Shown here in pieces: positions 1,321-50,412 of a DNA stretch of 64,000 bases. The stretch lies in NCBI GenBank assembly GCA_001972305.1, contig BDDD01000982.1, positions 156,671-220,670 on the forward strand. The letters run 5' to 3'. A program made the position numbers and the translations under genes. This DNA comes from Cephalotus follicularis. Its lineage: Eukaryota; Streptophyta; Magnoliopsida; Oxalidales; Cephalotaceae. The number at the start of each line of letters is the position of its first letter. Positions within the stretch are counted from its first letter, which is position 1. The notes below the pieces were generated by a model, which made no database searches, was not told the origin of the DNA, and saw only the letters and a program-made list of their open reading frames with translations.

Positions 1321-1505
1321 GTCGATGCTTTATGCTTTCAAAACTAAACCGGTCGACACTTTACATTTTCAAAATTGAACCCATTGTCACTTTTGATTCT
1401 TTCCTTTTAAACCAGCGACGCTTAATATTAAGCATCGGCACCCAACACAGAGAATCGATGCTTAGGTGCTAAGCGTCGATGCCTAGTGCTAAGCATTGAC
1501 GCCTA
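1321..1505 (+). repeat. GTCGAC-core palindrome cluster, L1 copy A
   Basis: About seven degenerate copies of an AAGCGTCGACGCTT-like word (for example GGTCGACACTT, AAGCGTCGATGCC, AAGCATCGGC), 20-70 bp apart. Many differ from the palindrome by C-to-T or G-to-A at CpG. Confidence 0.8.
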
Positions 1506-1598
1506 ATGCCCTGCCTTAGGCAAATTTCACTGTTTTGCATAGTTTTTGATTTCAATCAGTTTTCTCCCCAAAAGGAATCCATAGGAAGCCTCCCTAAG

Positions 1599-2339
1599 TG
1601 TGATGACCCGAATTTCCAGTAAATATAATAATTATGGAAAGACGATTGCTATTGTGTAAATTGGCAGATATTTCGAGGGACCCGTAGTATGACCCTACGC
1701 TCAGGGATTCGGGGGGGCAGCGCCCCCGGAAGAAAATTTTAATTGGCTAAGTGATGAGAAGGAAAACTGTCTAAAGCGCCGACAGTTCCACTTGAAGCGC
1801 CGACGCTTTGGTAGTGGCGGTCGACTCTTTGACCCCTTCTATCTGCACTTTAAACCAGTGCAAGGGTAAATTGGACAAAGCCCTCAAACCGTCGACGCTT
1901 AGGGATAAAGAGTCGACGCTTTGGGTAAAGGTCGATGTCATAATTTTAAACGTCGACGCATTGAAGATTAATGTGTCAGTTGACTTGGACGAAGACTTAA
2001 AGCGTCGACGCTTTGTAAGAAAGCGTCAGCGCTTTAGTCAGGATAGAGGTGAAAAAAACTCAGGTAAAGGCTGTGACAGTCGACGCTTAAAGGTAAAGAG
2101 TTTAGGAACGATCATGATAATGAGAATATGATATTTTTGTTTCAAAGATGTAAGTATATGCGATCCTGTGAAGTTATTGAGTAATAATATTAGGTTTTAA
2201 ATCTAAGCCAAGATTTTATGATATGAAATGGATCGTTAAATGGTTAAACGATTTGACGGTCAAAGGTTACACCCACGTAACGCACCGATCTTCGGAGCTC
2301 GCTTTGAGCATAAAGTGGACTCGGGTCGGGGGCGCTACA
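1599..2339 (+). mobile_element. L2 copy A: solo LTR with internal deletion
   Basis: Starts TGTGATGACCCG, ends GGGGGCGCTACA, and is flanked by a perfect 5-bp duplication CTAAG (1594-1598 and 2340-2344). The L1 sequence reads straight across it. It matches both ends of L2 copy B (29876-32164) but is 741 bp against 2289 bp, so about 1.5 kb has been lost from the middle. It holds a GC-rich inverted repeat at 1713-1727 and a cluster of GTCGAC-core palindromes at about 1776-2095. No coding sequence. Confidence 0.9.
1776..2095 (+). repeat. GTCGAC-core palindrome cluster, L2 copy A
   Basis: About ten copies, including intact AAGCGTCGACGCTTT, spaced about 20-45 bp. Confidence 0.88.
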
Positions 2340-2496
2340 CTAAGGCCTTGTAACCTATGGGAATCCTTTTTAACATCTTTGATTTCTAAATTGATCTTCC
2401 AAAGCAAACTTTTAAGAGAGAAGTTTTATAAAAGTGGTTTTATAAGAGAGAAGTGATTTGCAAAAATGGTTAGGATTGTTTCATCGTGACATCTAG

Positions 2497-4827
2497 TGTA
2501 ATAACCGCAATTTCAATTAATGTATATTGTATACAATGATGAATAAAATATACATTATATTAAGATTTAATGTCCAATTACTATATAAATTGGGGTTATT
2601 GAATTGTTGGGTTTGATCTGAAATGCAAATGTGGTAAAATACACTTAACAAACCAAAACCAGCCTCAAATACCCGACTGTCACAGGGTAACAACTGACTG
2701 TTTTGATTCAGGGAGTGACAGTCAACTATCACAGGGCAACAGTCGACTGGTCTATCTCAGACAGGTGTCTGTGCATGGTGTGAAACAAGGCAGGGCAGAT
2801 GATGACAGGTTTTCTAACCGTATCATGCAAGAAGGATGCGTGTCACTAGCTGCCTTAACATGCAAGGGTGGTGCCTTGCATGTGCTCTATTCCAACTGCA
2901 GACCTGTAACCTGCAAGATAGAAATTGGAAGAAGAAAAGTGAGAATCATGCATGTGAGAGAGAGAAAGTAAATGTTGGGATTGTAGTTATGGAATCTGCC
3001 GATTTCATAAGCTTATAAACCTTCTATATATCAGCTTTGAAGAGCTTGATATGAGTGTTAGAAAAACACTGAGGATAGAAAAATGAATGAGAGAATAGTT
3101 GGTGCTTGCATGTTGAAGTTGGGAGGTTCTAAGAGTGACTAAAACTTTGGTTTTCCAGGTAAGCTTTCAATTCTGGTTATTGTTGAAGTTATAGTCACTG
3201 ATTTCGGCCTACATGGCTACTGTCCATGCATTTATAGCTTTAAGGATAGCATTTGAGGTAGGGCTACTGACATGTTTTTGCAGATATTATATGTATAACA
3301 TGTCTAGATAATTTCTCTGTGATTGCATGTTATCATTTTGGTTGAATTGGAAGTTGAACATGCATACTATGTTTTGGTTAAACTGCTGCCTGACGTTTTC
3401 TGGACAAAAACAATCGACTGTCGAACCTAACAGTCGATTGCTCAATGTAAACAGCCGACTGTTAAGGACAAATAGTCGACTGCTTAATGACAACAGCTGG
3501 CTATTCTTATGAACAACCGACTGTTAAGAGACAAATTACTGATATTAACTGTTGTTTAGGCTTAAGTGATATATAATTACCCTGGCCTCCGCATTGGATG
3601 ATTGTAACATTCAATCCTTGCCATAGGTAGTTATATTTAAAATATTAAACAACTTATGGATCCCTTGTATGAATTGTGTAAGAACGACTATGGTTGTGCT
3701 TAGATACTTTATTGAATCCTTGAATTGCTATTGTTCTTGTTCTTAAGCTGCTATATTATGCTGCTGTTATAAGATAATGTATGTGTTCAAAACACTATTG
3801 TCTCACTTAATTTCAAGGATTAAACCAACTAGTTCTATAAGCACAAATATGGATTTTCTTACTATTGTTTTCCAAATGAAAACTTACTATCACTAAGTTA
3901 CTGATTTTCCTCCAATGAGAGGTACCACTACTGTTTTGAATACTCTTTCCTCCAAAAGAGAGGTATGGTCACTGAACTGTTAAATGTTTCTAAAAGAAAA
4001 TAATTACTATATTGCATATTATAGATATATGTAATATTGCTACTGAATTGATTGACTTGTTTGTCTATGTTGTTTCCATTAGTCGAGTGATAGGAGACAT
4101 CACTGGCTCCGGGGTGGTCCTATGTGCCAGGAGTTGGCTAGAGCCTCCACCAAACTTATCTGTGATACAGATCCTGATTGTTACCTGGCCGCTAAATCCT
4201 GGCAGAATTGTTACCTGATCTATCATCCTCGGAGTGTAGGGTGATAGTTCGGTGGTGCGCAGTTGGTGCTAGGAGTTAGCGACATGTGACACCCAAACCA
4301 CTGTATTGATTGATTTTACCCGTGTGCGGTATTCTTGAATTGTATTGTCTATGGCCACTTGGCGTGATTGATCATATATTGGAATACTTACATATATATG
4401 TTATTTCAAATAACTGACAAGCATGTTACATTTATATATTCCTTCTCATGCATTATTCCTACTTAGCCAAGTGAGGACAACGGCTAACCCCCTACAATTT
4501 CAGATTAAGTGAAGGTGTTCGGGGAAGTGCTGCTGAAGCTTTATTGAAGAGCTTCTATCTTGCTTAAGGTTGTTATTTACTATGTCTGGTATTGTAATAA
4601 CGATCATACTCTGTTGTTGTTATTTTACATTTCAAATATGCAAAGGATAACTTGTTCTGTATCGTGTAAGCATGTAGTATGGGCTGCGTGCGGATAACTA
4701 TTTAATTATAATCTAGCAATGAAATGCTTCCGCTTATGTTAATGAATGTTGATTACTGTTGAATGCTGGATTATTATTATAGCTGATATCTCCATATATG
4801 TTGTCTTGTGGAAAGTGGGGTGTGAGA
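2497..4827 (+). mobile_element. L3: solo LTR, 2.3 kb
   Basis: Starts TGTAATAACCGC and ends GTGGGGTGTGAGA, which looks like a mutated GTGACA end. The flanks TCTAG (2492-2496) and TCTCG (4828-4832) are a target duplication with one change, and L1 sequence continues on both sides. Layout resembles the G2 and G3 LTRs: palindrome clusters near 2670-2756 and 3412-3530, a conserved block CTTAGCCAAGTGAGGAC at 4462-4478, and a GTAGTATGGG block near 4675. No primer site or coding region, so a solo LTR. Confidence 0.83.
2668..3530 (+). repeat. CAGTCGACTG-type palindromes, L3 (two clusters)
   Basis: Clusters at about 2668-2756 and 3412-3530 with ACAGTCGACTG-like words. Same GTCGAC core as in other families but with different arms. 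Confidence 0.83.
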
Positions 4828-5288: not shown

Positions 5289-7247
5289 TGTAACACCCAC
5301 GATCTGTGGGAGTCACCACAGGTGCATATAACGGAAACTAAACATGACATATCATATTAAAACGTTCATTTTATTAAAAACGTGATGGTTTAAAGCATAA
5401 CCAAAAACATATCGAAACTGAACATCAACAGAAACTTATTCAAAATGAAAAAGTCATAAACTGAAATAACACATTGTTTAATAAATGGTTCCACTATGAC
5501 CACATAAACATAAAGGGATCTGCTATAAGACGATCCACAGACATATGGGAGTAACTCTCATCACATATTTCCCCTTGCTCCTGATAACCGGCCGCATGGA
5601 AACAAAAACGCGGCTGAGCAAACCTCAATACGGATATAGAATATAAAAATAGTAAACGATATTTTAAAGCAGGAAGATTTCCAAAAGTACATTAAAATTG
5701 AAATCTTAAGCAATAAAATAGTTTAAACATACTTAGTAAATGCCCACGGCAAAACATATAAAACAAGTTCATAACTTGATACCATAAAGTGTACCTTTTC
5801 AAAACATCGGATCAATAACTGAGCACCAAAACCCATAACATATCAGAAACCCATAGTAGCAAGGGGTTCGCGACACCGACATTGCCAAAAGAACTGCAGT
5901 ATATGGCACTACACATACAATTCTCATATCCCAAAACATATCCCAATAACATATAACTAGGATCGATCCATACGCCTCTATCCCAAATCCTATCTAAGGA
6001 TATCCCTGAGAGACGCCGTAAACGAATCACACCGTTACGGAAAGTGTCATGCCCCCGTGCCAGGCTCACAACATGCCTATGGTACCCCCATAGGTGGTTA
6101 TAAAAGCTCAGTATTTCACCATTTCCAAAAATATGATTTCATCAAATCATTTTAAAATAAAAATGTTTCCCAAACCATTACCATAAATCGTACTCAAACG
6201 ATATAGTTTTACATACTTTCATAATCAGAAAAATCAACTCATTTAATTTCACAATAAAGAGATGATTGCATATCATTTCGTAAATACATCATAACTGATT
6301 TCATAAAGTCAGAATATTTACTTCATAAAATATCAAATGACTTTATTTCCAAAAACCCAAATATACGGAATTCATAAACCAAAAGGAAGCATATTCATAA
6401 ACCGAGTGATAACAAAACCAGAATCTGTATTTAATCTCAAACAGAACTGAAACAGTAAGAATGTGTCAAGAAACGAAAATCCGTACCTTGTGCGATCATA
6501 GACTAACTTACGAATATCAGGAAATTTAATTTGTTGCACGTAGCACACTAATCTATTCAACATAACAATGTTCAAATAAGGGTCTAAAATTCATTTTGAG
6601 CATAAAACAGAATCATAATGATGTTTACGATAGACCCGGATCATCAGAAGAATAAACGGATGAAAACAGAAGTTTGCAGGACAAACCAGCCAACTGTTTC
6701 AAACATGCAGTCGACTAACAAGGAGTGGCAGTCGACTACACAACAGGGCCAGTCGACTACTCAACCTGGATTTGCAGACAGTCGATTGGATCAGGGGTCC
6801 AGTCGACTACTCAACACAAGACAGTCGACTGTTTGTACAATGCAGTCGACTACTCAAACTAGACAATCGACTTGTTCATACGGGCAGTCGATTGTTCTGG
6901 GTATCAGAACAGCAGTTCAGTGCGATTTGTGCAATTTTAGCAACCAAGACTTGGATTTTTCAACATTAGAAGGTTACCAACATGCAAAACAACTTCGTAT
7001 GACATGTAAAACATTGTTACAACACAGAATTCGACAAAGGCATGTTGACAGAAAATTTCTTCAATGTGACAGGGACTTTAAACCATGGAATACCAATACT
7101 CAATTCAATTCTGTCCACTTATCATGTTTACATGCATCAAAGCCAGTTTATATAACTCTTCCTAGATGCCTACAGATGACTGCTAACACATAATTACTTG
7201 ACAGAAGAACAAGGATACCGAAACCATAACTAAAACAATCTCTAGCC
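5289..7247 (-). repeat. G1 3' LTR, 5'-truncated
   Basis: Matches 11803-13761 of the 5' LTR with scattered changes, then breaks abruptly at 7246-7247 into pol sequence. The 793 bp corresponding to 13762-14554 are missing. Contains a cluster of CAGTCGACTA-type motifs at about 6685-6900. Long reading frames here are open only because of that repeat. Confidence 0.9.
6685..6900 (+). repeat. CAGTCGACTA-type cluster, G1 3' LTR
   Basis: About ten copies of CAGTCGACT spaced about 15-35 bp. The mirrored cluster in the 5' LTR is at 13203-13420. Confidence 0.88.
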
Positions 7248-8280
7248 TCCTCATCATAAGATAAATCCTCCCGAATGCTGTCCAAAGAATAGTGGACCAC
7301 GTGTAGTGGATGAAACTGATAACCCCTCAACAAGGACACATGGAACACATCATGAACATGAGATAGCTGTGGAGGCAAAGCTAACCGATACGCAACTGCG
7401 CCAACCATCTCCAGAACTTCAAATGGTAAACTGAGGACTCAACTTTCCCTTCAGTCCAAACCGTCGAACGCCTTTCCAAGGTGAAACTTTTAAGAACACA
7501 TGTTCACCCACTTTGAACTCCAAATCTTTTCGATGTTTGTCTGCATAACTCTACTGTCTAGATTGAGCCGTCTTCAACCTCTCCCTTGCGATTGCCACTT
7601 TCTCAGTAGTAATTCGTACTAGCTCTGGCCCCTTGATAACTCTTTCTCCGACTTCATCCCAGCATGTCGGAGCTCGACATTTCCTCCCATAAAGAGCTTC
7701 AAACGGAGCCATACGAATACTAGCATGCAAACTATTATTGTAGGCAAACTCTACTAGACTCAAATACTCATCCCAGCTTCCAGTCCAGTCCAAAGCACAA
7801 GACCTCAACATGTCTTCTAAGGTCTGAATGGTCCTCTCGGTCTGCCCATCTGTCTGTGGATGGAAAGCTGTACTGAAATTTAGCCTAGTATCCCAAGCTT
7901 TCTGAAACCCCTTCCAGAACCGTGAAGTGAAACGGGGATCCCTATCCGAAACAATAGATACAGAGTCCCATGAAGTCTCACAATCTCACGCTGGACATCT
8001 TCCGCCAAACGGTCCACAGAAAAATCCTCTCGAATTGCCAAGAAATGAGTTGATTTGATCAATCGATCCACAACAACCCAAATAGCATCGTTTCTCCTGT
8101 GAGTTCTCGGCAAGCCTGTAACAAAATCCATTGCAATACTCTCCCATTTCCATACCGGAACTTCTAAGGGCTGTAACAAACCACTAGCTCGCTGGTGTTC
8201 GATCTTAACCTGCTGACAAACCAAACACTTCCCGACAAATTCTGCTACATCCCTCTTCATTCTACTCCACCAGAAATTCT
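7248..8280 (-). pseudogene. G1 integrase remnant
   Basis: Fragments in different frames carry a degraded zinc-binding region with CLVCQQ, the catalytic-core start with WESIAMDFVTGLP (first catalytic Asp), then at 7551-7811 the later core with [19 protein letters not shown] and CWDEVGE, and at 7250-7405 the LALPP and VHDVFHVS region that precedes the chromodomain in chromoviruses. The frame ends in YDEE, exactly where the deletion joins the 3' LTR, so a chromodomain, if once present, is gone. Frameshifts near 8270, 7960 and 7540. Not functional. Confidence 0.9.
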
Positions 8281-8283
8281 CCT

Positions 8284-9273
8284 TTAAGTACCCGGATGTA
8301 TAGAGAATGGAGAGCTATGCACTTCAGACAAGACAACATCTCTGATAGAAGTATCTATCGGAACACACAACCGACTACACAACCAGATCACTCCATGCTC
8401 ATCCACACGGAACTCTGACTGTTTACCCTTTTCAACATTCTGAACTAAGGCCCAAAGCTCGCCATCATCACTCTGAGCTGCCTTAATTCGAGATATAAGA
8501 GTAGGCTCCATACACATGCCAGCCATATATCCATCTGAACCCCGAACAAACAGATTCAAATCCAATCGCTCCATATCTGCTATCAAATGCGACTGTGTAA
8601 CCAAAGCCGCCACACTCCCAGATCTCTTCCTACTCAGAGCATCATCCACCACGTTTGCTTTACCAGGGTGGTACTGAATATTCAGATCGTAATCCTTCAG
8701 AAGCTCTAACCAACGTCTCTGACGCATAGTCAACTCTTTTTGCGTGAAGATGTACTTGAGACTCTTATGATCAGTAAAGACTTCACAAGTTTCTCCATAC
8801 AAGTAGTGCCTCCAAATCTTCAGTGCAAACACAACTGCCGCCAACTCGAGATCATGTGTAGGGTAATTCAACTCATAAGGCTTCAACTGTCTCGAAGCAT
8901 ATGCTATCACATGACCATGCTGCATCAGAACACAACCCAAACCCTTTTTAGAAGCATCACTAAAAATCTGGTATCCTCCCGACCCAGACGGTAAACGGAG
9001 AATCGGTGCAGACACAAGATCGTTCTTTAAATTCTCGAAGCTTGCTTCCCGTTCATCATTCCACACAAACTTCGCTCCTTTCCTCATAAGCTGAGTTAGT
9101 GGCAAGGCTATAGAGGAGAAGCCTTCCACGAACCGCCTATAGTAACCAGCTAAACCCAGAAAGCTCCTAACTTCTGATACTGTAGGAGGTCTCGGCCATT
9201 TATTAATAGCTTCAACCTTAGCAGGATCCACAGAAATCCCTTCCGCTGTAACCACATGGCCTAAAAACGCCAC
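8284..9273 (-). pseudogene. G1 reverse transcriptase C-terminus and RNase H
   Basis: A 329-codon frame. It opens with [10 protein letters not shown] and the RT connection ([12 protein letters not shown]), then RNase H with the [15 protein letters not shown] segment and [10 protein letters not shown], then the linker [16 protein letters not shown]; the usual VADALSR motif has become VDDALSR. It ends at the start of the integrase zinc-binding domain ([10 protein letters not shown]), where a small deletion shifts the frame. A stop separates it from the preceding RT segment. The RNase H portion is the best-preserved part of G1. Confidence 0.9.
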
Positions 9274-10480
9274 CTATTCCAACCAGAACTCACATTTCAA
9301 AAACTTTGCGTATAGCTGATTCTTCCTCAGATTGCCAAGCACTATACGAAGTTGATCTTCATGTTCTTCCTTCGATTTCGAATACACAAGGATATCATCG
9401 ATGAACACAATCACAAAGCGATCCAGAAACTCATGAAAAACCCGATTCATTAAGTCCATGAAGCCCAAACGGCATCACCAGAAATTCATAATGCCCATAC
9501 CGTGTGCGAAAAGCGGTCTTAGGTACATCTTCATCTTTTATCCGTAACTGATGATATCCAGACCTCAAATCAATCTTAGAAAAATACCGTGCACCTTGGA
9601 GTTGATCAAACAGGTCATCAATCCTAGGCAAAGGGTATTTATTACGAACAATGATTCGATTCAGTTCTCTGTAGTCAATATGCAGTCTCATAGATCCGTC
9701 TTTCTTCTTCACAAACAAAACCGGAGCTCCCCACGGCGAAACACTCGGCTGTATAAAACCTCGATCTAACAACTCTTGCAACTGCTCTTTCAGCTCTTGC
9801 AATTCAAGTGGTGCCATCCTATACGGTGCTTTAGATATAGGTCCCGCCCCAGGAATGAGCTCAATGGTAAACTCCACTTCCTGTTGCGGTGGTAAACCCG
9901 GTAACTCCTCCAGAAACACATCAGAAAATTCTCTAACCACAGGATAATCTTCAAGGCGAGGCTCAACCTTTGAGATATCCTTCACAACAGCTAGAAACCC
10001 TTCGGCGCCCTTAGCTACTAACTTCTGAGCTTTCATAACAGATATGATCTTAACATATTTCATAGGCCGTGAACCCTGATAAACAAAATCAGGTCGATCC
10101 ACATCTCCGAGCAGAACCCTCCGAGCATGACAATCAATCGTAGCCCGATGGCGCTCTAACCAATCCATCCCCAGAATAACATCGAAATCATACATATCCA
10201 TAGGGAAAAGATTTGCATCACGAATCCGATCGTCAAAAACAATAGGACAAGCATAAAAACACTCAGATATCACAGCAGATGTCCCAATAGGGGTAGAAAG
10301 AACCAAAGCTGGATCAAACAACTGCGAAGGCATCCCAAGATGCCGAACAAAAGATCTCGCTACAACTGAGTGTGTCGATCCAGTATCATATAACACATAA
10401 GCTCTACGATTACCAACAGAAATAAAACCCGAAACCATACCTGGAGCATTAGCTGCCTGATGCGTCATAATTGCAAAGAC
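9274..10480 (-). pseudogene. G1 protease and reverse transcriptase
   Basis: In the 556-codon frame that begins at 11101, the aspartic protease motif YDTGSTHS is at about residues 238-245 and the flap-end motif VILGMDWL at about 308-315. RT follows: APYRMAP near 425, the first catalytic Asp in [12 protein letters not shown] near 511, and LVMPFG near 541-546. A frameshift near 9440-9470 breaks RT, and the FIDD catalytic segment continues in another frame at 9274-9468. Protease and RT residues themselves look intact. Confidence 0.92.
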
Positions 10481-11626
10481 TCGGCCTCCCACGTTGCGCT
10501 GCCCAACATTCGCTCCATTACCCTTCCTTTCCTTAGCACGAGGATCCTGACAATCCTTCACAAAGTGTCCCATCTGTCCACACACAAAACAGGATCCACT
10601 GAATTTATAACAGGTACCCACCGGGTGATACCTACCACAAGCATCACATATAGCAATCTGAACATCGGGGTTACCCCCATCAGCTCCCTGTGCATTCTTC
10701 GGATCATTTACCTGCTGACGCTGCTGATTACCATCTTTGTTCTGCTTATGATTCTTCTTATGCTGTTTACCTCCTCTGCCTTTGTTCCATGAACTGCCTT
10801 GACCCTTGCCCTGTTGTCCAGAATCTTGTTCACTCCTATACCGCTTCTTATCCCCTTCCTGACGTGCTGCCTGGAAGTCCAATCTCTCCAGCTCAATGTT
10901 TTTCGCAGCATTAGCAACTTCAGCGACATCCGCAAACCTAGAGTTTATCAGCTTTCCTCTAAACTGGTAATGTAGCTTCCACTTGAATTTTTCAGCTTGC
11001 TCTGATGCTGACCCAGCCGCGGATCCAGCAAACCAAGCTAATCTAGTGAAACGGGCCAAGAACTTCGAAACTGTTTCTCCATCCCTTTGCCTGGTGTTCA
11101 CAAATTCTCTAGCATAGGTCTCCTTATCAGCAGTGGGAAAATACTGCTGATAGAAGACTTCCTGGAAATCAGACCACGACAGAGAATCAGCATAACCATC
11201 ACCCTTAGCCGAATTCAGAGTATTCCACCGTTTCTGAGCATCCCCTTCTAGTATTTAAGCCGCCAACCTTACCTTCTGCTGATCATAACACCTCAGAACA
11301 TTAAAGATCTTCTCCATATGTGCTATCCAGTGTTCAGCTTCCACTGGTGTCACAGCCAAACTGAAAGACTGCGGCCTCTGTTTCTGAAACCGCTCAAGCC
11401 AAATATGAGTAGGTGTGCCATGCCTATCCCCAGTTTCCATATCCCTCTGAACCTCTGCCGGAGCATTCTCCTCAACAACTTGTTCTCGATTCTGTCATTG
11501 CATCACACAATTCACTTCCTGAGCAACTGCTTGACGAACCAACTCTTCCACAGAAGGCTCATTTCCAACTTCATTTCGAGCCCCAGCTGGTGCAGTTCTC
11601 TGAGGAGTGTTTCTTGTGCGTACCAT
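10481..11626 (-). pseudogene. G1 gag (capsid and zinc knuckle)
   Basis: The likely start is the ATG at 11626, about 160 bp after the primer site, opening MVRTRN. Two in-frame stops and a frame change break the N-terminal part (including one near 11497 and one near 11255). The capsid region has W...F...Y...Y spacing typical of the retrotransposon gag family around 11255-11101 and onward. A basic, Gln-rich linker leads to a CCHC zinc knuckle, [14 protein letters not shown], at about 10591-10550. Gag packages element RNA into particles. Confidence 0.85.
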
Positions 11627-11785
11627 CTACGAAAGAAACCGAAGCACATGATATCAAACCGAAACACAAAAATCAAAACAGAAAACATATCAGAATGCCC
11701 GAAAACATAACAGAACAGCCCTAACCCAAGTCTACCCAAGCTCACAGGTCAAACCTAGTTAGGTCTCCTAAGGAACAAAGCCTAT

Positions 11786-11797
11786 TCTCTTATACCA
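11786..11797 (-). other. G1 primer-binding site
   Basis: Reads TGGTATAAGAGA on the - strand, 10 of 12 matching the iMet complement TGGTATCAGAGC, five bases inside the 5' LTR. Confidence 0.75.
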
Positions 11798-11802
11798 TAA
11801 AC

Positions 11803-19561: not shown

Positions 19562-19564
19562 ACA

Positions 19565-19576
19565 TGGTATCAGAGC
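19565..19576 (+). other. G2 primer-binding site
   Basis: Exact TGGTATCAGAGC, complementary to plant initiator Met tRNA, three bases after the LTR end. Confidence 0.95.
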
Positions 19577-19674
19577 ATATTCCATATATGCTTAGCTAGG
19601 ATACTTTCCTTGGCAATCAATAAGTTGTTTTCCTAAAGTTGTGACTAATCGTCACTCTTCTTATAGGAAACAAT

Positions 19675-23039: not shown

Positions 23040-23070
23040 TGTTGTGTTAATTTTGAGGACGAAATTTCTT

Positions 23071-37867: not shown

Positions 37868-38474
37868 ATCTCCCCCTTTTTTATGACTACAAAACATTTA
37901 CAAAAAAAAACATCTACAATAAAGATAATAGAAATTTAACAGATATCAAAAAAAAACTAAATGACAAACTCTCCCTTTGTTAAGCTTCCCCTTAATATAT
38001 TCATTAAGATATTTTCAAAATGCTCATCATACCAATACTACTCCCCCTTTGTTAAGCTTCCCCTTTATATATTCATTAAGATATTTTCAACATGCTCATC
38101 ATACAAATACTACTTTTATCAACTCCCCCTTAACATATGCTTTCTCCCCCCCTTTTTTTTAGCATCAAAAAGAACATTTTTAAATTAACAACTTTGGTAC
38201 CAATTTGACAATAAAAAATACCTATAAAAAATTCATGATACTAATGATACCAATTGAAAGTGATACCATTTGAAAGTTAAAGTGATACAAATTGAAAGTT
38301 AAAATAATGTCAGAGAAAGGTTTAATGTATCAAGTGTAAACAATTTCTAAATAAGAACATTATTACGTTATCAACTTAATAACATTACCTCCCCCTCAAC
38401 AAAAGCTTTTCTCTCTGACAACTGTACTTGAATTTTATTATTTTAACTTCAAGTACATCTACAAGAAACAAAGT
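37868..38474 (-). other. C2 3' non-coding region with repeated polypurine tracts
   Basis: At least six G-rich purine runs on the - strand (near 37870, 37972, 38041, 38121, 38143 and 38389). Two of them lie in a 72-bp tandem pair starting near 37972 and 38044. Multiple polypurine tracts upstream of the 3' LTR are a known trait of Sireviruses. The run touching the LTR at 37869-37880 is the likely functional one. No gene. Confidence 0.82.
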
Positions 38475-40071: not shown

Positions 40072-40112
40072 GGATCTTTATATCTCTAACAATTAAGAAT
40101 TATAAGATAACC

Positions 40113-40124
40113 TCTCCGATACCA
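40113..40124 (-). other. C2 primer-binding site
   Basis: Reads TGGTATCGGAGA on the - strand, 10 of 12 matching TGGTATCAGAGC, two bases inside the 5' LTR. Confidence 0.78.
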
Positions 40125-40126
40125 AC

Positions 40127-40332
40127 TGAAAATCCTTTATGGCAATCTTCTAAATATTTATGGTTTGTGAAAAATCAAGTTAAACTAACGGAAATTAAAC
40201 AAAATAAGTAAAGAGAGATAAAGTTTGAGAGATTGTAAACGGAGTTTATAGTGGTTCGGTGAACTCTTGCCTACTCCCACTTTTCCCAAGGACCTCCTTG
40301 AGATTCCACTAGAAACGTACTAGTACTCTTTG
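40127..40332 (-). repeat. C2 5' LTR, inner fragment
   Basis: Matches the terminal part of the C2 3' LTR from 36776, apart from a short deletion, up to ACTCTTTG. There it is cut by G4 (CTTTG at 40328-40332 should be the left target duplication). The remaining ~0.9 kb is not in the window. Confidence 0.85.
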
Positions 40333-40896: not shown

Positions 40897-43483
40897 TGTT
40901 ACACCCAGAAAATTCATGTGTTGTAATTTCACAATGTAAATGTACTTTATTTCTGAAATTAATAAAATGATGGATTTTCTAAATTTGATGATGTTTTCCC
41001 AAACTCTGATGATGTAGAATTTGGAATCCAATTGTTAGAGGGATGTTAAAAGTGTAGTTTGGTTAAATGGCACAGTTTTGAGGTTAAAGTGTTGACGCCT
41101 GGACTTATAGCGTTGACGCATAAGCCATTGAAACGCACGTTTAAACTCAACACATAAGCGTCGATGCCTGCATGTAAACGTTGACGCTTTGAGGCGTGCT
41201 CTGCATACACATAAACAGCAAAAACACATGGCGCACAAAGGTATGTTCAAGCCACTGTTCAGGCGCCTCAGCTGCATTTCAAGACGTGTTAACCATGCAG
41301 CAAGGCTTCAGGCATGCATCAAAATGTGTCCATAGCCTTGGAAATGCAAATGGTTAGTGTCACCTCCACCTGCAATGACAGAAAGTTATGAAGAAAAGAA
41401 CAAGACCTGGAAAAGGAAAAAAATGGGAAAAGGAGCCTAGGAGGTGCATGCAACGAACCAGAGAGGGGGAGAGGTGTGTTACAAGCATAAAACACCTCCC
41501 ACTCTGTCCTACTTCTTGGTGGAACATCTAGGAAAGGAGAAAGGACGGACACAGTGAGAATTCATAGTGAGAAAGCTCAAACTCCATTGTTGAGCAAAGG
41601 AAGCTTGGAGCTTGCACACCAACTGCTAGGACGAACTAGGGAGCCTTCAAGCCATACCTGGGACTCAAAGCGACTGGTAGGATACTAAAAGAGGTGGAAT
41701 TTTAGATTCTAACTTGAGGCCAGAGGTAGAGGAAGCCATAACTGTATTTTGTGTTCAATACTTAGTGTTTGTTTAGCGATGTTCATGCATGAATTTCATG
41801 GTTTGATGATCCGTATTTAGTCACTGAAATGATTCTACCTTGTACTGGGTGTGTCACATGATATTGCATGACCATTTTCTATGCTTTATACCTATTGGAA
41901 TGCATGTTATATGCATTGAAATGTCACTGTTTGGCCATGTCGTGAGGTAGAAGACGACCCCTGCTTGAAACCGTCAACGCCTAAGTAATGACCGTCGACG
42001 CTTAATACTGTGAACTGCGTTTTAGATGTCGAATTCCGCTAAACATCGACGTCTCAGGGAGGAGGTATCGACGCCCAGACACTGAAAGAGTTGACGCTAA
42101 GGGACTAAACGGCGACGCTTAAGGCACATAAGCGTCGACGCCTGAGGAATAAACGTCGACGCTTTAGAGTCCTATTTGGACAGTTTTACAGTTTTGATGC
42201 CCGACAATCCCGTTTTCGCTTAGGATGCAGTAGAGCATTTGTATGCATTGCATATGCATTACTTACTGCCTGTTCTTGACTGTCTATAGATTGACTATGA
42301 TTTCTAAGTATCGTTACTTTAGAAATGCTTATATGAGTTGGAACTATTATGTTGAAAACGAAAATATAAGACGAGTGTTATTATATTTTTGAACATATTG
42401 GGGAAGCAATTTCCTCTTACTGAAACTGTTTAAAAGTATTTCTGCTACTGAATATGCATATTTTAAATGTTTATATCCTTCGAAAACATTTTGAAATGAA
42501 CTGACCGTTGTCGATCTAAACGATCACTACTGTACTGTTACTGCACTGTCTACTGTTTGACGCACTGTTTGCTCTGTGAAATTCTATGTGATAGTGCTTG
42601 AGCCACTGGTTGCATGGCGGAGGCTGCCAGCGCCGGCTAGTGGTAGGGTTGACCTAGGGACCAAGAGTATGCTTGGGTGACTCACTATACTGTACTGTTG
42701 CCTCGCTCGGTTTCCTGGAGTAGGGACTGGAGTGGGAGTGTAGCGTGAGGCCAGGAGTTGGCGGCGTTGCATATACTACCTGACTGTTGTGGTCTTTATG
42801 GACATACTGTACTGCCTGTTGGTCCTTTTCGGACATTACTGTGACTGTGGATGTTATCCTGGCTGGATCACTACTGTACTGTTCTTGCATACATATATTT
42901 TCTTATATATGTAGCCACTAATATTTTACTGTACTGCTAAAATATATATATTTCTCATATATATATATATATATAAACTGGTATTTCCTGCTCTGCATCT
43001 TTCTTGCATACATTACATGACATGCATCTAATGTTGATCCCGAGCTACTTTTATGACTTAGCCGAGTGAGGACAAAGGCTAACCCCCTACTTTATAGATT
43101 GATGCAGTGGACTGGTGCTGGACTGACAGGGACAAAGAACAAGTTGTTATGATGTTTTGTTCTGGGTTTTACTTCCTCATGTTTTGTAATAAACGGAGCT
43201 TGTTTATGGACCAATGTGTTGTACTTATGGTTTTGTTAATTATGGGATTTAACCTTGTATTGTGATCACGCTCCATTTTGTGTGCTATTAACAATGACGG
43301 ACTTGTTTTGTGTAGCGTGTAGTATGGGATGCACGCTACGCGTTTACAGCTTATGAATTTTCATGCTTCCACAACTGACATCTTGCTTCAAAGTTTAAAT
43401 TTTATGGTTTTTACATGAGTTGTATTTATGTGTTGATTGCCTTACCGCTTTAATTTTGCCTTCTCGATAAACGGGGTGTGACA
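40897..43483 (+). repeat. G3 5' LTR, 2.59 kb
   Basis: Starts TGTTACACCCAG (the 3' copy has TGTAACACCCGG), ends ACGGGGTGTGACA. Palindrome clusters at about 41086-41200 and 41967-42170. An AT dinucleotide run lies near 42957-42974, the conserved block CTTAGCCGAGTGAGGAC near 43057, and GTATGGGATGCACG near 43321. Confidence 0.93.
41086..42170 (+). repeat. GTCGAC-core clusters, G3 5' LTR
   Basis: Clusters at about 41086-41200 and 41967-42170, with AAGCGTCGACGCCTG, ACCGTCGACGCTTA and AACGTCGACGCTTT. Confidence 0.88.
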
Positions 43484-43487
43484 GTAG

Positions 43488-43499
43488 TGGTATCAGAGC
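43488..43499 (+). other. G3 primer-binding site
   Basis: Exact TGGTATCAGAGC four bases after the LTR end. Confidence 0.95.
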
Positions 43500-43595
43500 A
43501 TATTCCATATATGCTTAGCTAGGACATTTTCCTTGGCAATTAATGAATTGTTTTCCTAAAGTCGTGACTAACTGTCAACCTTCTTATAGGGACCA

Positions 43596-44605
43596 ATGGA
43601 CCGAAGAAGAACACGTGCTTAGGCTAGAGCTGTTGGAGCTAATACCCCTAAGGAGGCAAACATTCCGCAAGGGATGAATATTCCCCAAGATGACAGAGAT
43701 TCAATGGCCCGGATTGTGGACTATTTTCAGCAACAGATGGCCTTTAATAGGGCTAATGCGGAGGAGATGCGCCAGTACTACGCGCAAGCTCGACCGCAAC
43801 ATAGGGCTCCCGATCACTGGCCGGGGGAGGATGGTAACCGGTTTGGGAGAGACATTGAAAAGTTCATGAGGCTGAATCCGCCCAGTTTCCGGGGGGAACT
43901 TGATGCTACTGTTGCTGAAAGATGGCTACAGGACCTGGAGAAAATCTTTGAAGTGATGGACTGTAATGACACTCAAAAGCTGAAGTTTGCTGTGGGCCGC
44001 CTATGGGGTGAGGCCACTCATTGGTGGAAAATGGTCAAGGAAAAATGGGAATCACAGAGACTGGACAGCACTTGGGACAGATTCCAGACGGAGTTCTTGG
44101 AGACTTATGTTCCGCGTATTGAGCGAGAGCGACGAGAGACGGAGCTCTTGGAGTTGCGATAGGGGGAGATGACTGTGGCTGAATATAAAGCAAGGTTCAT
44201 GGAGTTGGCCAGACACTCACCTTATCTGGTAGCTGATGAAGAGAAGAAGATTTGGAGATTCCTGAGAGGTCTGCACCGGATCTTCGTTCGAGAATTAGGG
44301 CCATGGAACTGGGGACTTTTGCGGAGGTTGCTCAGAAAGCAAGACTATTGGAGACGATATCCAGCGAAGACCGGGCTGAGAGAGCTCGCGCACAGCAGAG
44401 TAAACAGAGTCCTACACAGTCCCGACCGGCATCATCGAAATGGCAAGATGGTGGATCTCTGACGAAGTCGTCAAAGAACAAGTCTCAACAGACAGCTTCA
44501 CAGGGTACTCCTAGCCAAGGGAGTAATGCTAGATCCATAGGTTGCTATTATTGTGGTCGTACAGGCCACTAACAAAAAGATTGCTGGAGGTTCAATGGTT
44601 GGTGC
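43596..44605 (+). pseudogene. G3 gag
   Basis: The ATG at 43596 opens MDRRRTRA and meets a TAG at 43620. The main frame 43674-44162 has DYFQQQMAF and the capsid domain with FRGELDATVAERWLQDLEKIF and the WWKMVKEKW segment. A TAG at 44160 is followed by more capsid sequence, a frameshift near 44260-44290, then the first knuckle CYYCGRTGH with a TAA at 44571. The second knuckle, [11 protein letters not shown], lies in the next frame with its last Cys changed to Phe. Confidence 0.9.
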
Positions 44606-46459
44606 TTGAGGTGCGGGGCACCTGGTCATTCAGTGAAGGACTTTTCGAAGAGTTCTGCTACAGTGCCTGCTAGGCCGGGAAGTAGTAGTGGTGCGGCGGC
44701 AGGACCGTCACAGAGGAAGGACACAGACAAGGGCATCGCAAAAGGTAGAGTTTTTGTACTTGTTGGAGGTACTCTGTATATATATGGTTTTTTTGCTAGA
44801 GTTTTGATGGATTCTGGAGCATCGTATTCTTTTATATCTGCACGTTTTGCATCTTTCTTAGATGCTACCTCTGACTGCATGTCATACATACTGGATGTGA
44901 GTACACCGACCGGGGCTTCTATGTATATTGATTCGATATATAGGAGTTGTGAGATGTCTATGGCAGGCATTCCCTTGTATGTAGATTTGATAGTGGTGCC
45001 TATCCGTGACTTCGATGTTATATTGGGGATGGATTGGCTATCAGCACACTATGCTCATATCGATTGCTATAATAAAACTATGGATTTTTGTCTGTCCGAT
45101 GGAACGAAGTTTCATTTCAAGGGAGACAAAGGGTTCTCGACACCGATCATATCCTTTATTCGAGCATCGAGATACCTAGAGAAGGGATGCGAGGGATATT
45201 TGGCCTATGTGATTGATCGGAGGAAAGAGAAAAGCTTGAGCTTGGAGGAAATTCCAGTTGTGTGCGAATTTCCAGATGTATTTCCTGATGACTTGGGATC
45301 TTTGCCACCGGAAAGAAATATGGAGTTTGTTATCGATCTTATACCAGGTACAACTCCTATTTCTAAAGCACCATATAGAATGGCCCCTGGAGAATTGAGG
45401 GAACTGAAATTGCAGTTGGAAGATCTGATCGATAAGGGTTTTATTCGACCTAGTGTTTCTCCGTGGGGTGCACCTGTACTGTTTGTCAAGAAGAAGGATG
45501 GATCGATGAGGCTCTACATCGACTACAGAATGTTGAACAAGGCAACTATCAAGAACAAATATCCTTTACCCCACATTGAGGAGTTGTTTGACCAGTTGCA
45601 AGGGTCAAGGGTGTTTTCCAAGCTCGACTTGAGGTCAGGCTACCACCAACTGAGAGTAAGGGAAGGAGATATTGAGAAGACTGCCTTCCAGACACGGTAT
45701 GGTCATTACGAGTACTTGGTAATGCCGTTTGGTGTTACCAATGCACCGGCAGCTTTTATGTCATTGATGAATGATGTATTCCAACCATACCTGGACCAGT
45801 TTGTTGTGGTATTTATCGATGACATACTGGTATATTCGAGGAGTGAGGAGGAGCACACTCATCATCTAAGGCTAGTATTGCAAGTTCTCAGAGAACATCG
45901 GTTGTACACCAAGTTTGGCAAGTGTGAGTTCTGGCTTGATCATGTGCTCTTTCTCGGTCACATTGTATCTGGGGAAGGCTTGATGGTGGATCCGTCAAAG
46001 ACTAAAGTAGTACGAGACTGGCCACAACCGAAGAATGTGACGGAGGTGCGCAGTTTCCTTATATTGGAGGGATATTACAGGAGGTTTATCCAGAACTTTT
46101 CAAGGATAGCCGAGCCCTTGACTAGACTGACCCAGAAGAAGACCCCTTTTGCCTGGGACGAAGACTGTGAAGCTAGTTTCCGTGAACTGAAGGATCGGTT
46201 AGTTTCCGCTCCTGTCTTGGAATTACCTGAAGGTAATGAGGGCTTTGCGGTCTACAGTGATGCATCAGGAAAGGGTTTGGGTTGTGTATTGATGCAGCGA
46301 GGCAGAGTGATTGCATATGATTCGAGGAAGCTAAAGCCATATGAAGAAAACTACCCGACTCATGACCTCGAACTTGCAGCTATTATCTTTGCCTTCAGAA
46401 GTGGAGACATTATCTTTATGGAGCGCAGTTTGAGATCTTTACCGATCATAAGAGTTTGA
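44606..46459 (+). pseudogene. G3 protease, reverse transcriptase and RNase H start
   Basis: 617 open codons. Protease motif [10 protein letters not shown] at about residues 68-77 with the catalytic DSG intact and VILGMDWL at 138-145. RT: APYRMAP near 255, [12 protein letters not shown] with the first Asp at 341, [11 protein letters not shown] at 371-381, and FIDD at 403-406. RNase H begins [15 protein letters not shown] near 549. A frameshift near 46390 sends the end out of frame after [10 protein letters not shown]. This is the longest intact coding block in the window. Confidence 0.95.
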
Positions 46460-47157
46460 GGTACCTGTTTTGTCAGGACACACTGAACATGAGACAGCGC
46501 AGGTGGGTAGAATTATTTAATGATTATGATTGCAGTGTTCAGTACCACCCGGGGAAAGCGAATATAGTCGCTGATACCTTGAGCTGCAAGGCTATGGTCG
46601 CCAGTGTGATGGTATCGCAATGGAAGATGTTAGAAGACTTCCAAGAGTGGTCTCCGTTCAATCAATCACCGGGGATCTTTGTGGCCGACATGCGAGTACA
46701 GCCTGTGTTACTGGATCACATCAGGGATGCACAACCGAATGATCCAGAGCTGCAACGGATTCGGGAGAACCTGGACTCACAATCCGATTTTTGGGTACAT
46801 GCTGACGGTATTCTGAGATATCGGGGACGTGTGTGTCTTCCAAATGAACCAGGGTTGAAGAATGAGTTACTTTGCGGGGCTCATAAATCTCTGTACAGTA
46901 TCCATCCTGGTAGCACTAAAATGTATCAGGATATGATGAAGACTTACTGGTGGACTGGCATGAAACGAGAGATCACCGAGTATGTGGCAAGGTGTTTGAC
47001 TTGCCAGACAGTTAAGGCCGAACACCAGAGACCGGTAGGTTTGCTACAGCCTTTACCAATTCCAGAGTGGAAATGGGAACATGTCACGATGGATTTTGTT
47101 TCAGGTTTTCCTCTTACTAGGAACCGTCACAACGCCGTGTGGGTTATCGTGGATTGA
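46456..47157 (+). pseudogene. G3 RNase H end and integrase N-terminus
   Basis: Resumes with [21 protein letters not shown], the linker YHPGKANIVADTLS, then integrase zinc-binding residues in AHKSLYSIHPGS, TYWWTGMKREI and CLTCQTVKAEHQ, and the core start WKWEHVTMDFVSGFP with the first catalytic Asp. Ends at a TGA after VWVIVD (47155), where G2 continues. Confidence 0.93.
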
Positions 47158-48130
47158 CTCACCAAATCAGTACACTTTCTGCCTACACACGTTACTGATT
47201 CTGCGAGCAAGCTAGCTCGTTTGTATGTGAAGGAGATAGTGATGCTACACGGTGTTCCAGTCAGCATTGTATGTGATATAGATGCCATCTTCACTTCCAA
47301 CTTCTGGAAGAAGTTTTAGACCGCTTTCGGGACGAAGCTAAACCAGAGTACTGCCTTCCACCCTCAGACCAATGGGCAGTCTGAGCATGCCATCCGGACC
47401 TTGGAGGATATCCTACGGGCTTGCATTGTTGATTTTGCTGGTACCTGGGAGCATCACATTCCTTTGATAGAGTTCTCTTATAATAACAGCTATCATTCCA
47501 GTATCGGCATGGCACCGTTTGAAGCACTGTATGGGAGGAAGTGCAGATCTCCTGTATGTTGGGATGAGGTCGGGGAGCAACCTTTACTCGGGACTGAGTT
47601 TGTGGAGGAAACTTCAGAGAAGATCAGGATGATCAAAAAGAAGCTGCTTGCTGCTCAGAGCTGACAGGAGAGCTATGCGGATAGTGTCAAGAAGAGGCCT
47701 TTGACCTTCAGTGTGGGCGATCATGTGCTCTTAAAGGTCTCACCATGGAAGGGCGTGCAAAGGTTTGGGAGAAAGGGCAAATTAGCTCCTCGCTACATTG
47801 TTTCTTTCGAGATTTTGGAGAGAGCTGGGGATGTAGGCTATCAGCTTGCCTTACCTCCTGCACTGTCAAATGTGCATGACGTCTTTCATGTATCTATGCT
47901 GAGGAGATATATCCCGGACCCGTCACATGTCCTGGATCATGATACTGTTCCGGTGGAAGATGATCTATCTTGTGAGGAGTTGCCTGTACGGATCCTAGAT
48001 TGGAAGATGCATATTTTGAGGAACCGAGCCATCTCCATGGTCAAGGTTCAATGGCCGTTCCACCGACCGGATGAAGCAACTTGGGAGCATTAGGAGGATA
48101 TTCAAGAACGCTGCCTGCACTTGTTCTAGT
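47158..48130 (+). pseudogene. G3 integrase core and chromodomain
   Basis: Continues through a TAG near 47319 (FWKKF then stop) to 47401-47664 with [27 protein letters not shown], a TGA near 47662, then 47701-48093 with the VLLKVSPWKG region, [13 protein letters not shown] and a chromodomain-like end, VRILDWKMHILRN...VKVQW...DEATWE. A TAG at 48091 clips the last residues. The conserved TCGAGGACGAAATTC segment follows. Confidence 0.92.
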
Positions 48131-48162
48131 CTCGTTTTGAATTTCGAGGACGAAATTCCTTT

Positions 48163-48176
48163 GAAGGAGGGGTGGA
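48163..48176 (+). other. G3 polypurine tract
   Basis: GAAGGAGGGGTGGA directly before the 3' LTR, nearly the same as in G2. Confidence 0.85.
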
Positions 48177-50412
48177 TGTAACACCCGGAAATTTCATGTG
48201 TTGTAATTTCACAACGTAAATGTACTTTATTTGTGGAATTAATAAAATGATGGATTTTCCGAATTTGATGATGTTTTCCCAAACTCTGATGATGTAGAAT
48301 TTGGAATCCAATTGTTAGAGGGATGTTAAAAGTGTAGTTTGGTTAAACGACACAGTTTTTAGGTTAAAGAGCTGACGCCTGGACTTATAGTGTCGACGCT
48401 TAAGCCATTGAAACGCACGTTTAAACTCAACACACAAGCGCCGATGCCTGCATCTAGACGTAGACGCTTTGAGGCGTGCTCTGCATACACATAAACAGCA
48501 AAAAGACTTGGCGCATGAAGGTATGTTCAAGCCACTGTTCAGGCGCCTCAGCTGCATTTCCAGACGTGTTAACCATGCAGCAAGGCTTCAGGCATGCACC
48601 AAAATGTGTCCATAGCCTTGGACATGCAAATGGTTAGTGTCACCTCTACCTGCAATGAATGAAATTTATGAAGAAAAGAACAAGACCTGGAAAAGGAAAA
48701 AAAAAGGGAAAAGGAGCCTAGGAGGTGCATGCAACGAACCAGAGAGTGGGAGAGGTGTGTTACCAGCATAAAACACCTCCCACTCTGTCCTACTTCTTGC
48801 TGGAACATCTGGGAAAGGAGAAAGGAGGGACACATTGAGAATTCATAGTGAGAAAGCTCAAACTCCATTGTTGAGCAAAGGAAGCTTGGAGCTTGCACAC
48901 CAACTGCTAGGACGAACCAGGGAGCCTTCAAGCCATACCTGGGACTCAAAGTGACTGGTAGGATACTAAAAGATGTGGACTTTTGGCTTTTAACTTGAGG
49001 CCAGAGGTAGGGGAAGCCATAATTGTATTTTGTGTTCAATACTTAGTGTTTGTTCAATGATGTTCATGCATGAATTTCATGGTTTGATGATCCATATTTA
49101 GTCACTAAAATGATTCTACCTTGTACTGGGTGTGTCACATGATATTGCATGAAAGTTTTCTGTGCTTTATACCTGTTGGAATGCATGTTACATGCATGGA
49201 AATGTCACTGTTTAGCCATGTCGTGAGGTAGAAGACGACCCCTACTTGAAACCGTCAACGCCTAAGTAATGACCGTCGACGCTTAATACTGTGAACTGCG
49301 TTTTAGATGTCGAATTGCGCTAAACTTCGACGTCTAAGGGAGGAGGTATCGACGCCCAGACACTGAAAGAGCTGACGCTAAGGGACTAAACGGCAACGCT
49401 TAAGGCACATAAGCGTCGACGCCTGAGGAATAAACGCCGGCGCTTTAGAGTCCTGTTTGGACAGTTTTACGGTTTTGATGCCCGACGATCCCGTTTTCGC
49501 TTACGATGCATTAGAGCATTTGTATGCATTGCATATGCATTACTTACTGACTGTTCTTGACTGTCTATAGATTGACTATGATTTCTAAGCATCGTTACTT
49601 TAGAAATGCTTATATGAGTTGGAACTATTATGTTGAAAACGAAAATATAAGATGAGTGTTATTATATTTTCGAACATAATGGGGAAGCAATTTTCGCTTA
49701 CTGAAACTGTTTAAAAGTATTTCTGCTACTGAATATGCATATTTCAAATGTTTATAACCTTCAAAAACATTTTGAAATGAACTGGCTGTTGTCGATCTAA
49801 ACGATCACTACTGTACTATTACTGCACTGTCTACTGTTTGACGCACTGTTTGCTCTGTGAAATTCTATGTGATTGTGCTTGAGCCACTGGTTGCATGGCG
49901 GAGGCTGCCAGCGTCGGCTAGTGGTAGGGTTTACCTAGGGGCCAGGAGTATGGCTGGGTGACTCACTGTACTGTACTATTTCCTCGCTCGGTTGCCTGGA
50001 GTAGGGACCGGAGTGGGAGTGTAGCATGGGGCCAGGAGTTGGCGGCGTTACATATACTGCCTGACTCTTATGGTCCTTATGGACATACTGTACTACCTGT
50101 TGGTCCTTTTCAGACATTACAGTGACTGTGGATGTGATCCTGGCCGGATCACTACTGTACTGTTCTTGCATACATATATTTTCTTATATATGTACCCACT
50201 GATATTTTACTGTACTGCTAAAATATATATATTTCTCATATATATATATATAAACTGGTATTTCCTACGAGTTTACAGCTTATGAATTTTTATGCTTCCG
50301 CAACTGACATCTTGCTTCAAAGTTTAAATTTTATGGTTTTTACATGAGCTGTATTTATGTGTTAATTGCCTTACCGCTTTAATTTTGCCTTCTCGATAAA
50401 CGGTGTGTGACA
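48177..50412 (+). repeat. G3 3' LTR with 0.35-kb deletion
   Basis: Matches the 5' LTR but lacks the interval equivalent to about 42990-43337 (348 bp); the joint near 50266 has a two-base CT overlap. The lost part includes the CTTAGCCGAGTGAGG block. Palindrome clusters remain at about 48365-48475 and 49250-49445. Ends GTGTGTGACA. Confidence 0.92.
48365..49445 (+). repeat. GTCGAC-core clusters, G3 3' LTR
   Basis: Clusters at about 48365-48475 and 49250-49445, in register with the 5' LTR. Confidence 0.88.

Follow-up and report, generated by a model that had tools for sequence, protein, structure and literature searches.

Arrays of stress elements are known from the long terminal repeats (LTRs) of plant retrotransposons, as with the BII boxes of Tnt1 and the heat-shock elements of ONSEN, and the host factor in these cases is known. 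Clustered LTR palindromes have so far been attributed to Sireviruses, with no use known for them. According to the available text of Bousios et al. 2010 (PMC2829016), the repeated motif (RM) of Sirevirus LTRs is palindromic, occurs at least 8 times in an element, mostly within the upper LTR half and with a TATA box downstream of it near mid-LTR, and forms CpG islands. The same source gives the RM a CGG-CCG core, Tnd-1 excepted, and calls it Sirevirus-specific among the Ty1/copia elements compared. In maize, the Sirevirus palindrome CACCGGACNNNGTCCGGTG also occurs in Helitrons, and Ty3 elements are generally without a structure peak, as stated in the accessible part of PMC10760457. Here we describe palindrome arrays in a 64,000-nucleotide stretch of the Cephalotus follicularis genome (GCA_001972305.1, contig BDDD01000982.1, positions 156,671 to 220,670 of the forward strand; hereafter the window), which consists of nested plant LTR retrotransposons. 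The same 14-bp palindromes were found in the LTRs of a copia element, which is a Sirevirus, and in the LTRs of Ty3 elements; the copia half of this finding is an instance of the known feature and the Ty3 half is new.

Three Ty3 elements with paired LTRs lie in the window, namely E-A (5289-13761, minus strand), E-B (16719-23821, plus strand) and E-C (40897-50412, plus strand), together with the copia element F (36766-40332, minus strand), of which one whole LTR is kept, and the LTR pieces K1, K2, K5, K6 and K7. A de novo search for palindromic motifs, run separately on 12 regions, returned a 14-bp palindrome of which GTCGAC is merely the centre, in the spellings AAGCGTCGACGCTT (A), AACAGTCGACTGTT (C) and AGACRTCGAYGTCT (G), with the arms AAGCG....CGCTT, AACAG....CTGTT or AGAC......GTCT. 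Spelling A was recovered in K1, K5, K7, E-C and the copia LTR, with a close form in a fragment beside K1, while spelling C or its core was recovered in K2 and E-A; in E-B the right LTR yielded AggCaTcgAtGccT and the middle of the left LTR yielded AGACaTCGAtGTCT. The motifs of K6 and of the relative L008 came in a shifted register, and the F-like LTR of L023 gave a weak motif (score 53). Scores were 68-176 in 11 array regions, as compared with a maximum of 40 in 60 shuffles of five regions.

A profile built from K1, K5, K7 and E-C detected 14 sites of at least 7 bits in the F LTR, where shuffles gave 0.65 (maximum 4) and permutations of the same profile gave a mean of 0.50 (maximum 6), with none of 300 reaching 14. 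As K1 and K7 are not proven to be Ty3 and Ty3 coding is shown for E-C, the profile was also trained on E-C alone; 12 sites were then detected in the F LTR, with 0.70 in shuffles (maximum 5) and 0.43 with permuted profiles (maximum 4; 0/300). Conversely, a profile trained on F detected 11 sites in E-C, 19 in K5, 8 in K1 and 12 in K7 (0.7-1.8 in shuffles), with no excess in E-A (1 site) or in the Ty3-like element E-D (0 sites) and little in E-B (2 sites). What the copia LTR conserves are the outer arms AAGCG....CGCTT, with the central TCGA present in only 1 of 13 sites. The sharing between copia and Ty3 LTRs that the first-pass annotation had proposed for the bare GTCGAC core was borne out, and more strongly, once the 14-bp palindrome replaced that core, and it survived both the shuffled and the permuted-profile controls.

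The core itself was counted 49 times in the window, with 6.2 expected from dinucleotides, and ranked first of the 64 palindromic hexamers; 48 of the 49 copies lay within LTR or array regions, which were partly drawn around the arrays. Exact copies exceeded all 300 shuffles in K1, K6, K2, E-A, K5 and E-C, and here the GTCGAC clusters originally claimed for eight LTR families, whose labels were matched to these regions by position, were confirmed; the count in K7 was matched by 2/300 shuffles. Support for E-B was weak, as neither the single copy in its right LTR (matched by 17/300 shuffles) nor the count in the middle of its left LTR (46/300) was significant. For the copia LTR the literal claim failed, since only one exact copy was present, matched by 22/300 shuffles and again not significant. 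Restriction to LTRs was examined in elements whose LTR and interior borders had been set independently of the arrays. The interiors of E-A, E-B, E-C, F and E-D contained no exact GTCGAC, and profile sites there did not exceed shuffles (0-2 per class with all three profiles), whereas the LTRs of E-A, E-B, E-C and F carried 10-15 sites of at least 8 bits in their best class; the right LTR of E-B, which is deleted, carried 5. The LTRs of E-D, a Ty3-like family in the same window, had no palindrome array by core counts, by de novo search (score 31, not above shuffles) or by profiles.

Adjacent sites were most commonly 20-22 bp apart, about two helical turns. In the window, 62/103 adjacent distances of up to 80 bp were 19-23 bp, as were 134/238 distances of up to 90 bp in a sample of the genome, and the remaining distances favoured 28-33, 41-43 and 50-54 bp. 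A coding repeat, 21 bp being 7 codons, was rejected because spacings of 19, 20, 22 and 28-32 bp break the frame. Plain recent tandem duplication of units was likewise rejected, the spacers being mostly dissimilar; in E-A they were 0.30 identical (null 0.34) and the sites 0.73, a value inflated by the choice of sites by motif.

The enrichment is real and extends across the genome. In the whole assembly (1,577,397,061 bases, ~1.58 Gb, in 9,746 contigs), GTCGACN{10,16}GTCGAC, that is, two cores 16-22 bp apart, was present at 175,484 places versus 2,150 for the pattern read backwards, and AAGCGNNNNCGCTT, in the A spelling, at 76,756 versus 193 when reversed. In collections of viral and bacterial sequences, pairs of the motif turned up in 2, 5 and 0 stretches. 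The genome sample comprised 20 stretches of 10 kb taken by contig number and fixed position, hence not strictly random, of which one was all N and two were partly N. GTCGAC was present there 102 times versus 14.7 expected, again first of 64 palindromic hexamers, and besides AT repeats the commonest 10-bp palindromes were CAGTCGACTG (12) and GCGTCGACGC (10). The three profiles gave 356 sites of at least 8 bits versus 86, 103 and 91 in three shuffles, and 32 clusters of at least four sites versus 0, 0 and 0. Neighbouring sites agreed in spelling with a concordance of 0.82 versus 0.37 by permutation, and 18 of the 32 clusters were of pure spelling (10 A, 7 C, 1 G).

By its junction marks element F is a Sirevirus. 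Its 3' LTR (36766-37867, minus strand) is entered at 37867 through AGGGGGAG-AT-TGTTGGG, the polypurine tract standing exactly 10 bp upstream of the LTR and followed by AT/TG, and four exact copies of this tract lie from 38396 to 37870. Both a polypurine tract before the 3' LTR with an AT/TG junction and multiple identical tracts are given as Sirevirus marks in the consulted portion of PMC2829016. A simple 11-bp search in F for the inverted repeat typical of the Sirevirus junction gave only A/T-rich 9/11 matches. The 5' LTR junction reads CA/GTTGGTATCGGAG in F and CA/ATTGGTATCAGAGC in its relative L030, the Sirevirus reference being CA/ATTGG with a Met-tRNA primer site. The truncated interior (37868-40126) encodes copia gag, with Retrotran_gag_2 above cut-off and CCHC slightly under it (20.1 vs 20.8), and is cut off before pol, so that no pol is left; the relative L029 has gag, CCHC and gag_pre-integrase, with integrase slightly under cut-off (30.9 vs 32.6). 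The 5' LTR is a remnant (40127-40332) without its array end. Assignment of other LTRs to the F type was based on LTR similarity for L030 (plus its primer site), the F-like LTR of L023 and L032 (the weakest, with 122 bp at 74%); in L029, L009 and L008, coding or interior sequence added to the LTR similarity. In L029, L030 and L009 the arrays lie in LTRs directly before a Met-tRNA primer site, with adjoining copia coding in L029 and L009.

As F is a Sirevirus with its array upstream of a mid-LTR TATA-like box, the copia half of the finding was already known in kind. By its own motif the F LTR has 13 sites, 12 of them in an A-class array (37384-37753) at LTR positions 115-484 and one at position 820, and the array ends ~115 bp before the TATA-like CTATACATAG at position 600 of 1102. 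Like the RM as presented in the available text of PMC2829016, the F array is palindromic, exceeds 8 copies and occupies the upper LTR half upstream of such a box, although it starts earlier (at 115) than the 200-400 bp into the LTR stated there. In the same text the Vitis RM, CGGTCGACCG, contains the GTCGAC core, and between the C-class centre ACAGTCGACTGT and the Tnd-1 RM, ACAATCGATTGT, 2 of 12 bases differ. None of the spellings A, C and G has the CGG-CCG core of the RM, and, whereas the RM was called Sirevirus-specific from a comparison of copia elements only, the same kind of motif is present here in the Ty3 elements E-A, E-B and E-C. The earlier reading of the window had missed the Sirevirus identity of the copia element, the 14-bp palindrome as the shared unit and its several spellings.

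Profile-free counts of the three spellings were made in 15 LTRs, with 1 match in all for the reversed control; outside this set were K1, K2, K5, K6 and K7 and their relatives, the left LTRs of E-A and E-C, the F-like LTR of L023, and L020. Among Sirevirus-like LTRs the A/C/G counts were 7/0/0 in F, 7/1/0 in L030, 3/1/3 in L029, 0/3/0 in L009, 0/0/9 in L032 and 2/0/0 in L008. Among Ty3 LTRs or their LTR relatives they were 6/0/1 in E-C, 0/5/0 in L019, 1/0/9 in L034a, 0/0/6 in L034b, 0/0/11 in L035, 0/0/13 in E-B, 0/5/0 in E-A, 0/4/0 in L023 and 0/0/0 in E-D. A single spelling dominated in 13 of the 14 LTRs having any site, L029 being mixed; its Sirevirus-like array (6350-6730) was possibly caught between classes.

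Homologous LTRs could differ in spelling. L019 (C) is 80-85% identical to E-C (A) downstream of the array and 62-67% identical upstream where alignable, and the start of its interior is 92% identical; for L034 and L035 (G) the downstream identity to E-C is 71-72%. Close alignment between L019 and E-C starts only at the array end, and the alignments of E-C with L034 extend into the array, where units may have changed in place. On the copia side, L009 (C) and F (A) are 81% identical over the first 727 interior bases. In both superfamilies the differently spelled arrays of homologous LTRs occupy about the same place. Judged from E-C with L019 and F with L009, spellings A and C are used by both superfamilies, and G is too if L032 is rightly placed.

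The remaining features are given in their order along the window. An A-like array of 8 sites (AAGcaTCGAtgCTT; 1317-1504, no strand assigned) lies within a K7-related fragment, 1424-1598 of which aligns with K7. The K1 array (1774-2088, plus strand; A class, 9 sites) belongs to an LTR that apparently starts at ~1603 (TGATGACCCG) and is Ty3-type from its terminus alone. The C-class arrays K2a (2668-2773, 5 sites) and K2b (3381-3525, 7 sites), both on the plus strand and of spelling AACAGTCGACTGTT, follow. The K5 LTR (24268-26003, minus strand, antisense) has A-class arrays at 24624-24992 and 25699-25852; K6 (30106-30406, plus strand; A class, 9 sites) is of the K1 family; and K7 (34730-35052, minus strand; A class, 14 sites) is a putative LTR piece for which LTR ends were looked for and not found. 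These five LTR pieces have no Ty3 coding. K1, K2, K5 and K6 start TGTAATR-, TGATGACCC- or TGCAATGACCC-like, resembling Ty3 LTRs, and these termini weakly suggest that K1, K2 and K6 are Ty3-type. K5, besides its terminus, aligns with the E-C LTR, of which it is a distant homologue.

E-A (minus strand) consists of a 3' LTR (5289-7246) with a C-class array at ~6706-6896, an interior (7247-11802) with pieces of gag, protease, reverse transcriptase (RT), RNase H and integrase and palindrome sites at chance level, as in the F interior, and a 5' LTR (11803-13761) with a C-class array of 10 sites at 13200-13411. In E-B (plus strand) the 5' LTR (16719-19570), treated as full length, has G-class arrays at 16892-17043, 17793-17877 and 18098-18220, and the 3' LTR (23084-23821), 2.1 kb shorter, has an array at 23257-23407. 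An insertion at 17316-19427 was considered for the left LTR; homology to the E-C LTR argues otherwise and makes it more likely that the left LTR is complete and that the right one has undergone a deletion. E-B encodes RNase H followed by integrase, its RT region being assigned by alignment with E-C, and a chromodomain scan gave Chromo at 19.0 bits (cut-off 25.1). E-C (plus strand) comprises a 5' LTR (40897-43483) with arrays at ~41087-41190 and ~41949-42165, an interior (43484-48176) with gag, protease, RT, RNase H and integrase and zero 8-bit sites, and a 3' LTR (48177-50412) with A-class arrays at 48367-48469 and 49200-49445. The 5-bp target duplication ctgat flanks E-C, and a chromodomain was not found in the scanned E-C pieces. 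RT, RNase H and integrase are in Ty3 order in E-A and E-C. The pol relative of highest identity among the 120 listed was P0007, with 85% over 74%; another, P0056, is a Ty3 pol protein of plant-like type whose record stands under a Corynebacterium isolate, and is probably contamination. Tandem repeats of 16 and 37 bp lie between elements at 51118-51444. E-D (56408-64000) is a Ty3-like LTR pair with no recognised coding domains in six scanned pieces, and its interior contains tandem repeats of 24-34 bp. Rfam and tRNA scans of the window gave no matches.

We consider it somewhat better than an even chance (about 0.55) that the arrays are clustered putative binding sites for homodimeric host proteins and make up the enhancer of the LTR promoter. 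Each 14-bp palindrome would be bound by one homodimeric host DNA-binding protein, with units stepped ~20-22 bp, about two helical turns, apart, and the array would serve as an enhancer within the LTR promoter in which spellings are interchangeable. A homodimeric activator is suggested by the dyad, the kept arms, the many copies, the two-turn step and the regulatory position in the LTR, and a host protein by the sharing of the palindrome between unrelated elements. Among the three ideas put forward in the first-pass annotation, namely a host activator site, a silencing-related target and a sequence spread by exchange, the first, as a predicted binding site, is the best supported. Repeated host-factor sites likewise form an LTR enhancer in Tnt1 and ONSEN; the host factor is known there and predicted here, and unlike those arrays the unit here is a 14-bp palindrome in several spellings. 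In this reading the A, C and G arms around a TCGA-like centre would answer to different, probably paralogous, host proteins. Among the E-C-like Ty3 LTRs the spelling has switched on at least two occasions, and among the F-like Sirevirus LTRs on at least one, with most units of an array shifting together. A bolder extension is that the genome has a small set of paralogous homodimeric DNA-binding proteins, one for each spelling of the arms, and that elements of both superfamilies have repeatedly and independently re-tuned whole arrays between spellings; this is possible, and we hold it to be doubtful.

Several observations weigh against the enhancer reading. In the comparison of K1 with K6, conservation of the sites does not exceed that of the spacers (core 49/54, arms 65/72, spacers 155/175; 159/199 outside the array). 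The LTR pairs of single elements differ equally in sites (24/518) and elsewhere (177/4125), and such evenness is expected of changes after insertion. On the downstream side of the array, a TATA pattern had no match in E-A, in the E-B right LTR or in K1 and K6, the last two being partial LTRs. Distances other than ~21 bp show a weak 10.5-bp phase (p ~0.002 and ~0.003) and fit a 13.65-bp period better; helical phasing beyond the ~21-bp step was accordingly dropped, and only this step, of roughly two turns, is claimed. Profiles A and G overlap as well, the left LTR of E-B giving A 15 and G 14. By profile only spelling C is cleanly separate, and the division between A and G rests on the profile-free counts and the de novo motifs.

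Other explanations were weighed on the same evidence. Template switching or recombination may have carried arrays from LTRs of one superfamily, Ty3 or Sirevirus, to those of the other, with later divergence until only the constrained palindromes align, and both the occurrence of the same spellings in the two superfamilies and the similar placement of arrays in homologous LTRs of different spelling would fit such exchange. When five Sirevirus-like LTRs were compared with nine Ty3 or Ty3-type LTRs (a set without L008, L023, L034a, K2 and K6), however, the 69 local alignments at E<0.01 fell to 0 on masking of the palindromes. The spacers of F matched Ty3-type spacers at only 0.20-0.35 (E-C 0.25, K1 0.20, K5 0.35, K7 0.31), with 0.19-0.34 for reverse complements, in an informal comparison with no formal null. 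This speaks against recent transfer between the LTRs compared and would leave only an old one, with which the alignments remain compatible; we would favour convergence and regard exchange as unlikely. The earlier statement that these LTRs share little other sequence accordingly held for copia versus Ty3 and did not hold among some Ty3-type families, where related LTRs may simply have inherited the cluster: K1 and K6 are 80% identical, and the K5, E-B and E-C LTRs are distant homologues. A functionless by-product of mutation, in which slippage or unequal exchange multiplies short palindromes, would account for the largely block-wise shifts of spelling, as concerted turnover would give, for the mild likeness of spacers in K7 (p 0.011), F (p 0.012) and K4b (p 0.035), and for the even conservation of sites and spacers between K1 and K6. 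It leaves unexplained the identical spellings in unrelated LTRs and the likeness of sites where spacers mostly differ, and element interiors are at chance level; we think it very unlikely.

The palindromes might instead act as RNA, with hairpins in the transcripts being of use to the element or being processed to small RNAs for silencing, as has been proposed in maize Sireviruses. Maize Sirevirus palindromes are small-RNA hotspots in the available text of PMC5311732 and PMC10760457, and stronger folding than in shuffles was seen for 8/10 arrays (z -2.9 to -8.4, the two LTRs of E-A supplying two of the eight) and for neither of two control regions. The arrays of F (z -1.5) and E-C (z -0.2) nevertheless fold about like shuffles and keep the motif, on which ground a hairpin was rejected as the common function; hairpins arise from any well-kept palindrome, and neither a set spelling nor a 21-bp step is needed for them. 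An RNA role is, we believe, distinctly unlikely. It is equally as improbable as the mutational by-product that the sites bind a host chromatin or silencing protein, or an anti-silencing protein encoded by the elements, in place of an activator. The sites bear CpG, and 90 of the 195 one-mismatch GTCGAC hexamers in the window are the four CpG-transition forms of CGTCGACG, a raw count with no expectation computed that would fit methylation and decay. An element is unlikely to keep a silencing target unless it is useful to itself, and no element-encoded DNA-binding regulator was present in the open pieces scanned. Least probable of all, and hardly to be expected, are C-repeat/dehydration-responsive elements (CRT/DRE) for AP2/DREB (CBF) stress activators. 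The PLACE entry CRTDREHVCBF2 is GTCGAC, listed as the preferred HvCBF2 core in the accessible part of PMC4222965, and GTCGAC or RCCGAC is present in 10/11 sites of E-A, 8/12 of K1 and 7/9 of K6. It is present in only 2/13 sites of F, 3/17 of E-C, 5/21 of K5 and 0/10 of E-B, and a CRT/DRE array was rejected because the core is missing from most units of these four; kept arms and a dyad are moreover not DRE features.

Our literature search, which most subscription papers lay outside, returned no report of one palindrome common to Ty3 and copia LTRs in the portions of the papers available, and a term search of the accessible text of PMC11656987, PMC6911290 and PMC11963269 gave nothing relevant. 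A close parallel is the maize CACCGGACNNNGTCCGGTG (PMC10760457), likewise a Sirevirus palindrome that recurs in another superfamily of the same genome; there the second superfamily is the Helitrons and in the present genome it is Ty3, each of the two superfamilies here having more than one spelling.

That Ty3 elements share 14-bp spellings with Sireviruses of their own genome, and that the spelling changes in both superfamilies, points to a common host factor. That factor becomes findable, with the palindrome as bait and the spelling classes as built-in controls. If the enhancer reading is true, one host regulator, or one family of regulators, would have been captured convergently by copia and Ty3 elements, the main two groups of LTR retrotransposons in plants. 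Should the more doubtful re-tuning of whole arrays also prove true, the spelling of an array would be a switchable address, and its turnover would record an arms race or niche partition among element families.

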